64,000 nt of DNA from the NCBI GenBank assembly GCA_029564595.1, contig JAKQPS010000001.1, positions 124,001 to 188,000 of the forward strand, written 5' to 3'. Under the pieces are notes generated by a model, which saw only the letters and a program-made list of their open reading frames with translations, had not been told where the DNA came from and searched no databases. Position numbers and translations under genes: made by a program. The DNA is from a bacterium. Lineage in GTDB: Bacteria; UBP15; UBA6099. Of the stretch, positions 57,779-63,443 are shown one piece after another. The stretch's first letter is position 1; every line of letters begins with the position of its first letter.

Positions 57779-58309
57779 TCACTGGCAAATAGGGCATTTG
57801 TCAGCGCCTACTGGCTTTGGTTTGCCGCACCGCGAACAAAGTTTTTTGAGCGCCGCCCCGCAGTGCGGGCAAAACGTATAATCTTTTGTCAGACGCTGCA
57901 TGCATGCCGGACAGTTGCTAGTGCGATGAATCGCGGCGTTGATCTCTTCAATAATCGCTTCGGCTTCGAGTTTTCCGCAGTTCTGAAACTCCACCGCAAT
58001 ATCTTCCTCTTCGTTCATTTCGTTCCTGAAATTGATTGTTATGTTGCAACCGTTAAGGAAATGCTTAAACGAAGCCCCGATCACTAACCTGCGCGGATAC
58101 GCCTTGAATCCGCACTTATCTTTCAGATATCTGCCTTTGACCGATAGTATTCTTGAGTCCGTGATTAAAAGGTAGTTCCTGTCTTGCGGCAGCGTCGCTT
58201 TCTGTTCGTCGCTCGAAATCCCTCCGTAAGGAATCGCGAACATCAGAGGCTCGCCCGGCGCAAGCAGCCCGGACAGCGTTTTTAAAACATATTCTTTTAT
58301 TCTAATCAC
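57779..58309 (-). CDS. Zinc-ribbon protein with PH/bacterial-stress-like domain
   Basis: 176 residues from a GTG at 58309, proposed because a TATAAT lies at 58367-58372 and the sequence further upstream overlaps the GH4 gene's end and looks non-coding. The first ~125 residues resemble PH-type regulatory folds ('NYLLITDSRILSVKGRYLKD'); the last ~45 carry two zinc ribbons with CPxC ('CPACMQRL', 'FCPHCGAAL') and a third Cys pair 'CSRCGKP' plus 'CPICQ'. A single-protein sensor or adaptor is likely. Function unknown; start uncertain. Confidence 0.6.
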   Translation of the reverse strand: MIRIKEYVLKTLSGLLAPGEPLMFAIPYGGISSDEQKATLPQDRNYLLITDSRILSVKGRYLKDKCGFKAYPRRLVIGASFKHFLNGCNITINFRNEMNEEEDIAVEFQNCGKLEAEAIIEEINAAIHRTSNCPACMQRLTKDYTFCPHCGAALKKLCSRCGKPKPVGADKCPICQ

Positions 58310-58366
58310 AGGTTCCAGAAGAATCGCCCCCGGAATTCTCCGCGCTTGTTCTGATTTTCTATTTTT

Positions 58367-58394
58367 ATTATACCCCAAAAAGCGAAAGGTCGAA
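58367..58394 (-). promoter_or_regulatory. Promoter candidate of the zinc-ribbon gene
   Basis: On the minus strand an exact TATAAT with a poor -35 (TTCGAC or TCGACC, spacers 16 or 15). Confidence 0.45.
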
Positions 58395-58476
58395 TCTCCG
58401 ACAAAAAAAGCTTTAGAGGGATTTGATTTCTGTGAAGAACAGTTTTGTGTTTGACGCTCGCTATGTGAGGCAAATC

Positions 58477-59775
58477 TCAATCGAAAGGCAGAGCATCTTT
58501 TTGGAGAGCAAGCATCTCGTCGAACATTTTTTTGCACGAGTTGCGGTCGGGAGGAGAAAGAGGGTCCTCAAGCAGCGCTTCAAAAGCGGGGTTTGGGTCT
58601 CTCGTTAAAACAGATTCGACGATTTTGTCATGAATATCATATTGAAGCCGCATGTGATTGAGCAATTCTTCGGGCAGTCGAGGCGCTGTTTTCGGAATGA
58701 TTTCCCCGTTCGCGGCCTTCGCGGGAGTTTCCACTATCGCCCATTCGGGAAGTCCGGGAACCTGTTCTCTAGTGTTCGGCAGATTCACAGAGCCGAATTC
58801 AGCATTCGCCCCGGAAGCCGCCGCTTCCACCACATCTATGCCGCCCTCAATATTGCGCGGCATCATCCTCAGCGGCAGCCGCAATTTTCCTTTTGCGTAC
58901 ATCTCCGTCAGTTTTACTCTCATCCTGCATTCGGTTTCTGAAAACTTATGGTAGGGAAACAGTTTGGAGTTCGACCTTGTGTTTTCGCCTTCATAAGGAA
59001 GGTATTCCCCGATATGGCTGTCCGAACTTGCCGGGTACAGGCCGTGTTTCTTGAACATACTCCTCACAAGTTTCCCGTGCGCAAAAGGGAATACCTCCGA
59101 GTGCAACTTCAATTTTGGAAACAAGTCCTCGCCGGTTTGAGCGTTTTTCAACTCGTAAATCCAAGTGAAATGGTTCATCCCGGCGGCTTTAGCCGCTATT
59201 TTGTTCCTCGGCATCAGCAGATACGAGGAAATACGGAGCATGCACAGATTGAATTCAGGACACATTCCTATCGTTTTAATCTTCGTTGACCTGTTTATCG
59301 CCAGATTGACCCGGCTGAGCGGGTTGGTGACATTGATAAGCAGGGCGTCAGGAGCGCTTTTTTCGACTAGGGCGCAAATTCTCAGGACGAGATTGATAGT
59401 TCTCAACGAGTGAAACAGGCCTCCGGGCCCGCCATTCTCCGCCATGTCCTGCGGCGATCCGTATTTTCGCGGCACGGCGTAGTCTTCTTTCCATCGCTCC
59501 CATCGTCCCGCTTCGACAGACATCGCTATGTAATCGGCTCCTTCTATCCCTTTCGCCGTGTCGGTTTCGCTCTCAATGGTCAACGGGCTCCCCAACTCCT
59601 CATTCATTCTCTGCGCCGCCGAGCGGGCCACTTCCAGCCTTTCCCCGTTGATGTCCACAAGAACCAGCGTCGAGCCGCGCAAACCTTCCGCCAGCGCCGT
59701 CTCCAGAGACATCACCGGCCCGAACGAGGCTCCTCCGGCCCCCACAAGCGCGATTCTCGGTCCTCTACTGCTCAT
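58477..59775 (-). CDS. GH4 family NAD-dependent glycosidase
   Basis: 432 residues. GH4 enzymes cleave alpha- or beta-glycosides through an NAD- and Mn-dependent redox mechanism. Marks: Rossmann N-terminus 'IALVGAGGASFGPVMSLE', 'GADYIAMSVEAGRWE', 'ENGGPGGLFHSLRTINLVLR', 'LLINVTNPLSRVNLAINR' (Asn-Pro), 'GMCPEFN' (metal-binding Cys) and 'AAGMNHFTWIYEL' (His). The substrate cannot be chosen among alpha-galactoside, alpha-glucoside, glucuronide or phosphoglycosides. Clear AAGGAG site. The gene is separate from the zinc-ribbon gene downstream. Confidence 0.93.
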   Translation of the reverse strand: MSSRGPRIALVGAGGASFGPVMSLETALAEGLRGSTLVLVDINGERLEVARSAAQRMNEELGSPLTIESETDTAKGIEGADYIAMSVEAGRWERWKEDYAVPRKYGSPQDMAENGGPGGLFHSLRTINLVLRICALVEKSAPDALLINVTNPLSRVNLAINRSTKIKTIGMCPEFNLCMLRISSYLLMPRNKIAAKAAGMNHFTWIYELKNAQTGEDLFPKLKLHSEVFPFAHGKLVRSMFKKHGLYPASSDSHIGEYLPYEGENTRSNSKLFPYHKFSETECRMRVKLTEMYAKGKLRLPLRMMPRNIEGGIDVVEAAASGANAEFGSVNLPNTREQVPGLPEWAIVETPAKAANGEIIPKTAPRLPEELLNHMRLQYDIHDKIVESVLTRDPNPAFEALLEDPLSPPDRNSCKKMFDEMLALQKDALPFD

Positions 59776-61766: not shown

Positions 61767-63443
61767 ATGAAGTGCTCGAAATGCGGTGAAAACAAGGCTG
61801 ATTACTTCCTGTCTTGGGGAAGACAGGAATCCCCGCGAGTGGGTTTCTGCGCGGAATGCGCGGAATCCGTGGGGATGCTGGCGGCGCTTAGGCGCGTCGA
61901 GTCCCAGATAAGAGGGCTTGGCGGCGCGGACGACCTCTCCCAGACTCTCTCCTGCTACGATTTGCCTGTCGAGTTTGCGGACAGTTGCAGGGCTTGCGGA
62001 ACCAAACTTCGGGAATTCGAGCGCGGTTTCAGGCTCGGTTGCCCGGAATGCGCTTCCGTTTTCGGCTCGATGCTTACCGGTTATCTTTCTTTGCTCGGTT
62101 GCTCGCTCGCCGACGGCGTGTCGTTTTACAGAGGGCCGTCCCCGGCGGCTTACTCTGAGCGTTCGAAACTCCTGAAACTGAAAAACAGAATTGAAGAAGA
62201 AATCAGGACGGAAGACTATGCGTCCGCTGGGAAACATAAGGAAGCCCTTCTGAAGCTGGAAAAGAAAGTGGAATGCCGCGCGAAATCCCGGATAGATGCG
62301 TCGAAAAGGGCCGCGCAGGGGTTCCCGGCGGCGTTGAAGCTCGACGCTTCCGCAAAATCGGCAATCAACTCCGGCGGCGGTTGCTCGCCGTCTTCCAACG
62401 ATACGGGAATAGTATGGAGCCGCGTCGAACTCAGACGCAATTTCTCCGGTTTCAATTTTCCCGGCAGGCTTTCGCCCTCAAGACGCGAGCTTGTCGAGCT
62501 TTTAGCCGTTTCACTTTTGCCAAAGGGCTTTATTTCATCTTCAATGAGAATAAATATGAAGCCTCTGTCCGTGATTGAGAGGCTCGCCCTCGGCGAACGT
62601 TTTTTCATGAGGCGGCCTGAACCCCGCTCTTCCGCCCTCATCAATCGCGACGGCTCAATGTCGGCGCTGATAAACGACATTGATCATCTCTCGGTGAGCG
62701 CGTTCCAGTCCGGCGCTGCCGGCGCGGACGCCGCATCTCTGATGGCAAAGGCTCTTAAGGCTGTCGAGGGAATGGAAAAGGACGCCGAACCGGCGTTCTC
62801 TCCGAGGTTCGGTTATCTTGCGGCCTCGCCGAAATATATCGGGTCGGGAGCATCGGCGTCCATTCTGTTGCATCTGCCTTACAGTTTTTTGAGCGGCGAC
62901 ACATTTTTCTGGCCGGACAGAGCGGAGCGCTATTCAGTGAAAGTAGAACCCTTCAGAGGCTCCAACTTAGAACATCACGGATTCTATCTTGTGTCGGCTC
63001 TCGTCGGATTCGGCCAGACCGCCGAAGAGATAGCCGTTTCGACCGGGGAATTTGCAGCGCGCCTTATCCAGAGAGAAGGGGAGTTGCGCGACGCCTTTTC
63101 GCCCGACGACGAAAACAGAATGCATCGCGCCATTCCGCGCGTCATCCACAACGCAAAACGCGCGCACAGGCTTTCATATCAGGACACTCTCAGGTTCGTT
63201 TCGCTCTTTTCCGTCGCTTTGGATAGAGGCTTGGTCGAGATGCCCGCGTTCGCCGTTTCCGACGTCCTGCCCGCCATGTCGTCCGCCGGAATTATGCTTG
63301 CGGACGGAAAAACGAGCAGTATCAACGAATGCGAGGCCCGCCGCGCGGACCTATTCGCGGAAATCGTTGACGCATGGCTGTATTCGAAAGACTCCGAAAT
63401 CGCGAACGGAAGGGGCGCGGGGAGGTCGCGCTCCCGCAGATGA
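61767..63443 (+). CDS. McsA-McsB fusion; arginine-kinase domain with altered active site
   Basis: 558 residues. Residues 1-100 hold four CxxC pairs (C3/C6, C28/C31, C74/C77, C92/C95), the McsA zinc fingers, followed by a UVR motif at about 134-169. Residues about 215-540 are an McsB/phosphagen-kinase fold: 'RRNFSGFNFPGR', 'SALINDIDHLSVSAFQSG', 'FSPRFGYLAASPKYIGSG' and 'ASILLHLP'. In McsB, protein-arginine kinase of Gram-positive bacteria, 'SRxRxxRN', 'EEDHxR' and 'GTGxRAS' supply arginines for ATP; here they read SRVELRRN, DIDHLS and GSGASAS, and the GE(G) loop is lost. This looks like a pseudokinase or an enzyme with a new chemistry. clpC and ctsR are not near. Its stop overlaps mobA. Confidence 0.87.
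   Translation: MKCSKCGENKADYFLSWGRQESPRVGFCAECAESVGMLAALRRVESQIRGLGGADDLSQTLSCYDLPVEFADSCRACGTKLREFERGFRLGCPECASVFGSMLTGYLSLLGCSLADGVSFYRGPSPAAYSERSKLLKLKNRIEEEIRTEDYASAGKHKEALLKLEKKVECRAKSRIDASKRAAQGFPAALKLDASAKSAINSGGGCSPSSNDTGIVWSRVELRRNFSGFNFPGRLSPSRRELVELLAVSLLPKGFISSSMRINMKPLSVIERLALGERFFMRRPEPRSSALINRDGSMSALINDIDHLSVSAFQSGAAGADAASLMAKALKAVEGMEKDAEPAFSPRFGYLAASPKYIGSGASASILLHLPYSFLSGDTFFWPDRAERYSVKVEPFRGSNLEHHGFYLVSALVGFGQTAEEIAVSTGEFAARLIQREGELRDAFSPDDENRMHRAIPRVIHNAKRAHRLSYQDTLRFVSLFSVALDRGLVEMPAFAVSDVLPAMSSAGIMLADGKTSSINECEARRADLFAEIVDAWLYSKDSEIANGRGAGRSRSRR

Follow-up and report, generated by a model that had tools for sequence, protein, structure and literature searches.

A fused McsA–McsB protein that has very likely lost arginine kinase activity and may act as a single-chain adaptor of ClpC

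The McsA/McsB systems of B. subtilis, G. stearothermophilus and S. aureus (6TV6, 6FH1-3, 8GQD, 8WTB) are composed of two proteins, with McsB as an active kinase, and McsB is discussed as an enzyme that marks proteins for ClpCP. In B. subtilis the mcsA and mcsB genes lie in an operon with ctsR and clpC, and tagging and ClpC bridging are entangled in this organism. The ClpC-adaptor activity of B. subtilis McsB has been reported to require kinase activity; the removal of CtsR from DNA by McsB under thiol stress is kinase-independent, with the McsA thiols in control (both reviewed in PMC5506225). Chlamydial McsB, too, features in the literature as a putative active kinase (PMC5177608, PMC10128030, PMC11708050).

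In the 64,000-nucleotide stretch of DNA analysed here (the window) the two proteins are joined in a single gene, the features of which are collected in Table 1. The product shares with the described systems the order of the proteins, the McsB fold and the McsA cysteine pattern; it differs in being one chain and in having no catalytic residues. A first-pass annotation had read the gene as McsA followed by McsB, and this reading is borne out by the uninterrupted ORF, by matches to models of both families and by a sequence search in which the McsA chain and the McsB chain of PDB complex 8WTB each match the one ORF; the McsB domain is complete. The McsA model NF053706 aligns with residues 1–171 (E 5e-8) at 32.8 bits, which falls short of its equivalog cut-off of 210 bits, and the McsB model NF002194 aligns with residues 214–532 (E 1.6e-26). 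The guanido phosphotransferase C-terminal domain PF00217 passes its cut-off (E 3e-14, 53.3 bits versus 22.4), whereas the McsB equivalog NF053707 reaches 74 bits against a cut-off of 500. A profile of McsA from related loci, with the fusion protein itself among its seeds, scores 147 bits against the N-terminal part.

Table 1. Features of the fusion gene and of the replaced McsB positions, in coordinates of the window
Feature	Position	Strand	Basis or remark
mcsA-mcsB fusion gene	61767..63443	+	558 aa, ATG start, stop included, one unbroken frame
McsA-like part, residues 1-180	61767..62306	+	NF053706 E 5e-8
First zinc site (predicted), C3/C6 + C28/C31	61773..61859	+	invariant across fusions
Second zinc site (predicted), C74/C77 + C92/C95	61986..62051	+	invariant across fusions
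UVR-like helical hairpin, about residues 135-172	62169..62282	+	alignment; model helices 129-147, 151-184
McsB-like part, residues 211-540, phosphotransferase and dimerisation domains	62397..63386	+	family models, AlphaFold
E221 replacing R31 (SRxR motif)	62427..62429	+	alignment
IDHLS, 305-309: I305 for E121, S309 for R125	62679..62693	+	alignment
S354 for C167, S363 for R176	62826..62855	+	alignment
E394-P395 for R207-G208, S399 for E212	62946..62963	+	alignment
C522-E523 for R337-D338, phospho-arginine receptor site	63330..63335	+	alignment

All four CxxC motifs noticed at first were located, and their eight McsA-type cysteines, forming two predicted four-cysteine zinc sites, are invariant in the aligned fusions. 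By position, the second site would correspond to the finger through which S. aureus McsA docks on McsB (PMC12467219). The UVR motif, also named in that annotation, is visible as a segment of the alignment and in the helices of the model, but the Pfam scan made no UVR call; the segment is deleted in the most divergent fusion described below (G006).

The same fusion is encoded in a genome of the same genus (G001, contig L003, 96% amino acid identity), in another family of the order (G005, 39% identity) and in a third family (G006, about 35–36% identity), so it is not an assembly artefact. In a maximum-likelihood tree the fusions form a single clade with support of 100/100. Comparison of the window copy with L003 revealed 49 synonymous and 24 non-synonymous changes and a dN/dS of 0.14 overall (0.06 for the McsA part and 0.19 for the McsB part); the gene is under purifying selection. 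The fusion went undetected in G003 (of the same genus and 92% complete) as well as in G002 and G004, both less complete than G003, and hence it is either dispensable or unassembled in these three genomes. Loss is plausible in the case of G003, an assembly gap being the alternative; in both G002 and G003 the part of the neighbouring region that aligns is confined to its far end. Such absences, together with the lost catalytic residues, are what one would see if the gene were a functionless, decaying remnant. This explanation is largely refuted by the selection data and is barely tenable, since the frame is open in four genomes down to about 35% identity, dN/dS is 0.14, and all eight cysteines as well as many core residues have been kept.

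The surroundings of the G005 copy offer a hint as to its origin. There the fusion gene adjoins three genes that we read from the sequences as encoding a PIN/TRAM-domain protein and as ispF-like and rlmB-like. These match the genes that we take to flank the B. subtilis clp operon (yacL, ispF and rlmB), which suggests that the fusion descends from an ordinary mcsA-mcsB-clpC region.

To describe the active site we placed the McsB half in an alignment with B. subtilis McsB and some 75 McsB domains drawn from other genomes. Residue numbers are those of B. subtilis McsB (8WTB chain numbering minus 2) and agree with R337 and D338 of the phospho-arginine receptor site (PMC8370763). The motifs quoted in the first-pass annotation, SRVELRRN, DIDHLS and GSGASAS, are present exactly as written, and the corrected alignment upholds the claim that the arginines of the catalytic site had been lost. 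We take R31, E121, R125, R176, R207 and E212 to be the catalytic set of McsB, and E212 and C167 to have the roles assigned to them here. In the window protein all six positions are replaced (by E, I, S, S, E and S, in that order), as they are in G005 (E, M, T, S, E and N). The loss also goes beyond what had been noted, extending to R207 (E394), E212 (S399), C167 (S354) and the receptor pair R337/D338 (C522/E523). The G006 protein, with Q, E, C, R, E and R, retains E121 and R176, which indicates that catalytic decay was gradual and stepwise within one clade. The replacement of R207 by glutamate, followed by proline, is fixed across all three families of the order. One could still suppose that the protein is an active arginine kinase whose residues were misplaced by the alignment, given that R219 aligns with R29 and that several arginines lie near the site. 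However, the anchors RN, DH, P-x3-GxG and HLP align and the superposition of the structures extends across the entire domain, making such misplacement very unlikely.

An AlphaFold2 model of the fusion, built with 84 aligned relatives, has a mean pLDDT of 80; most of the McsB half reaches about 90–98, and the linkers and parts of the McsA half score low. The predicted McsB half superposes on 6FH3 with a Z of 33.6 (333 residues, 2.9 Å) and on 6TV6 with a Z of 33.5; arginine and creatine kinases score about 19–22, well below the McsB crystal structures. As modelled, the McsB scaffold is retained in both domains, and the kinase chemistry is gone. The intact core fold of the model and the invariance of E394-P395, R347-F348 and H404-G405-F406 in the three families indicate that parts of the domain are constrained, as would be expected if a rebuilt active site still catalysed something, for instance phosphotransfer to another group, or served to bind nucleotide only. 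We regard this as decidedly improbable: at the nucleotide-phosphate arginine positions R125, R176 and R207 the protein has S, S and E, S399 takes the place of the catalytic glutamate, and the families differ from each other at E121 (I, M or E), R125 (S, T or C), R176 (S, S or R) and E212 (S, N or R), a pattern of loss and not of a new site taking over. As to the two functions initially suggested, nothing speaks for a new activity as against simple loss. With the six catalytic positions and the phospho-arginine receptor site all gone, a regulator lacking kinase activity has the best support. Judged by its residues, the fusion protein is very likely devoid of arginine kinase activity. Among bacterial Ser/Thr pseudokinases, whose Hanks-type fold is unrelated to McsB, dead kinases are likewise kept, presumably for binding or regulation.

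Next, we consider the genome around the fusion (G000; 4.4 Mb, 203 contigs, 97% complete). In this genome the fusion is the sole PF00217 match and the sole McsA match, and no second McsB or McsA was found here or in the other genomes searched. Searches for clpC and ctsR, proposed along with the initial observation, found the former and not the latter. The ClpC protein (828 aa) has Clp_N repeats, a UVR-like middle domain and a VGF loop of the ClpP-binding type; ClpC is also present in relatives, and ClpP is encoded in the window genome and the other genomes searched as well. Unlike in B. subtilis, clpC is not directly downstream of the fusion: it lies on contig G000:C108 and the fusion on G000:C138. 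CtsR was found in none of the seven genomes of the order, a search in which the L. lactis control matched and the B. subtilis control did not, which marks a blind spot. The B. subtilis control genome had no match to PF00217, PF02861 or PF05848. B. subtilis carries genes for all three, and the ctsR-mcsA-mcsB-clpC operon thus appears to be missing from the control copy; absence calls therefore carry some risk.

The position of the fusion away from clpC, the invariance of all eight zinc-site cysteines and the known kinase-independent removal of CtsR from DNA by McsB (PMC5506225) would suit a zinc- or thiol-controlled partner of some target other than ClpC, such as a DNA-bound repressor, on which the fusion would act as McsB acts on CtsR. 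We consider such a target unlikely, as the seven genomes of the order yielded no CtsR and pseudo-McsB elsewhere is often encoded upstream of clpC.

To place the degenerate site in a wider context we surveyed 386 genomes chosen as relatives of the window genome, in most cases at the level of the domain only. A PF00217 match was present in 140, and McsB regions were taken from essentially all of these. McsB was called degenerate when at least two of the six catalytic positions were lost or when the active-site loop carried a deletion. Most McsB proteins in the survey keep six of six positions. Degenerate McsB is found in about 30 of the 140 McsB-bearing genomes (21–23%), with five or six losses in several lineages, and degeneration is thus not special to the fusion protein, contrary to what the first-pass annotation might have led one to think. 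On well-supported branches of the maximum-likelihood tree no fewer than three changes are needed to account for the degenerate state, and the best tree requires four; many degenerate sequences sit on long branches, and their exact placement is unsafe.

We examined the neighbours of 29 degenerate loci: mcsA is directly upstream in 18, fused in four and overlapping in one, and thus adjacent or fused in 23, with no mcsA neighbour detected in the remaining six (L107, L108, L110, L111, L112 and L103). At 12 of the 29 loci, distributed over several families, clpC follows in the order mcsA, degenerate mcsB, clpC (L087, L091, L102, L092, L093, L094, L096, L100, L105, L106, L109 and L113). Loss of the kinase site therefore did not cost these operons the gene or its association with clpC, and the position of pseudo-McsB beside mcsA and often upstream of clpC ties the non-catalytic form to ClpC. 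Unfused degenerate proteins such as L087/L091/L102, L092, L096, L100, L105 and L106 resemble the fusion in their lost catalytic residues and the mcsA upstream, but are encoded by separate genes directly upstream of clpC, and the tree does not show them in the same clade as the fusion.

Nor is fusion as such tied to a degenerate site. A second McsA–McsB fusion of about 531 aa (G178; L081, G178:C46:23000-28500) likewise has McsA followed by McsB in one frame, but it keeps six of six catalytic residues, has clpC directly downstream and groups with the intact enzymes on the tree. Since this fusion is fully intact, fusion and decay are separate events, and the unusual feature of the window protein is the combination of the two. 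Frames of more than 500 aa in G331, G213, G075 and G057 were considered as further fusions and rejected, being long open frames that adjoin a separate mcsA.

Two possible correlates of the kinase pathway were also considered. The phospho-arginine pockets of ClpC (E32 and E106), compared with a B. subtilis ClpC sequence that we take as the reference, were rejected as a pathway marker: intact and degenerate lineages both retain the glutamates. At L021, L095 and L098 an intact McsB adjoins a ClpC with Leu at the E32 equivalent (TTLD, not GTEH). As for phosphatases, the window genome encodes a single low-molecular-weight enzyme. It shows the CTGNSRRSQMAEG...CDNAKKTCP pattern, which we take to be arsenate-reductase-like (ArsC), and not the CTGNTCRSPMAE pattern, which we take to denote the phospho-arginine phosphatase YwlE. 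By this motif rule, read by eye, no YwlE-like phosphatase was found in the genomes of the window order. With the same by-eye rule, and with not every locus readable, YwlE-type phosphatases were seen in about 10 of 20 genomes with intact McsB versus 3 of 20 with the degenerate form, which is only suggestive of a correlation with intact McsB. Two loci of the order (L134 on G005:C58 and L133 on G006:C426) encode a protein of about 590–610 aa in which an ArsC-like low-molecular-weight phosphatase domain is combined with what appear to be a PAS sensor domain and a sigma-54 activator.

We favour, with somewhat more confidence than doubt, the reading that the fusion is a pseudokinase that serves ClpC(P) as an adaptor or regulator, with its zinc/thiol sites on the same single chain. 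The retention of the McsA cysteines and the McsB body, together with the undetected CtsR target, makes a thiol- or zinc-controlled ClpC adaptor the most economical model. According to this model, an ancestral mcsA-mcsB pair would have fused to one gene in the window order, and the McsB half would have shed its arginine-kinase chemistry stepwise, the fold and the McsA zinc/thiol sites being kept under selection. The McsB body and the UVR/zinc part would bind ClpC and its clients, ClpC(P) being the likely partner, and the cysteines could possibly act in redox sensing, with zinc or thiol stress as the signal, in the manner of B. subtilis McsA. Counting against the adaptor model are the position of the fusion away from clpC in the window order, its apparent absence from G002–G004 and the UVR deletion in G006. 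Moreover, since the adaptor activity of B. subtilis McsB is reported to need the kinase, a kinase-free adaptor is not established.

A broader and more tentative proposal, to which we give rather less than even credence, is that McsAB has a conserved kinase-independent role at ClpC, with arginine phosphorylation as a repeatedly lost layer. Pseudo-McsB adaptors would then operate in roughly a fifth of McsB-bearing lineages, and the fusion would be their extreme, self-contained form. The repeated occurrence of pseudo-McsB suggests that McsB has a kinase-free job: the kinase site has been discarded repeatedly while the McsA–McsB unit, the fold and often the neighbours were kept, which provides a natural means of telling tagging and ClpC bridging apart. 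Our search of the open-licence literature, with subscription papers outside its reach, found no report of an McsA–McsB fusion or an McsB pseudokinase, and provisionally pseudo-McsB is apparently a wider and undescribed pattern. In many lineages it is unsafe to label such genes automatically as 'protein arginine kinase', and the single-chain fusion lends itself well to structural studies with ClpC.

Finally, the promoter and terminator scan at the window was uninformative, and no CIRCE elements were present within the window. Elsewhere in the window, positions 57779-58537 (minus strand) encode a protein with a C-terminal double zinc ribbon (PF12773). A sequence of about 220 bases just past the window end (G000:C138:189712-189931, L002:6712-6931) is an interspersed repeat, of which G001, G002 and G003 carry dozens of partial copies; it may be a small element with a mobile or regulatory character.
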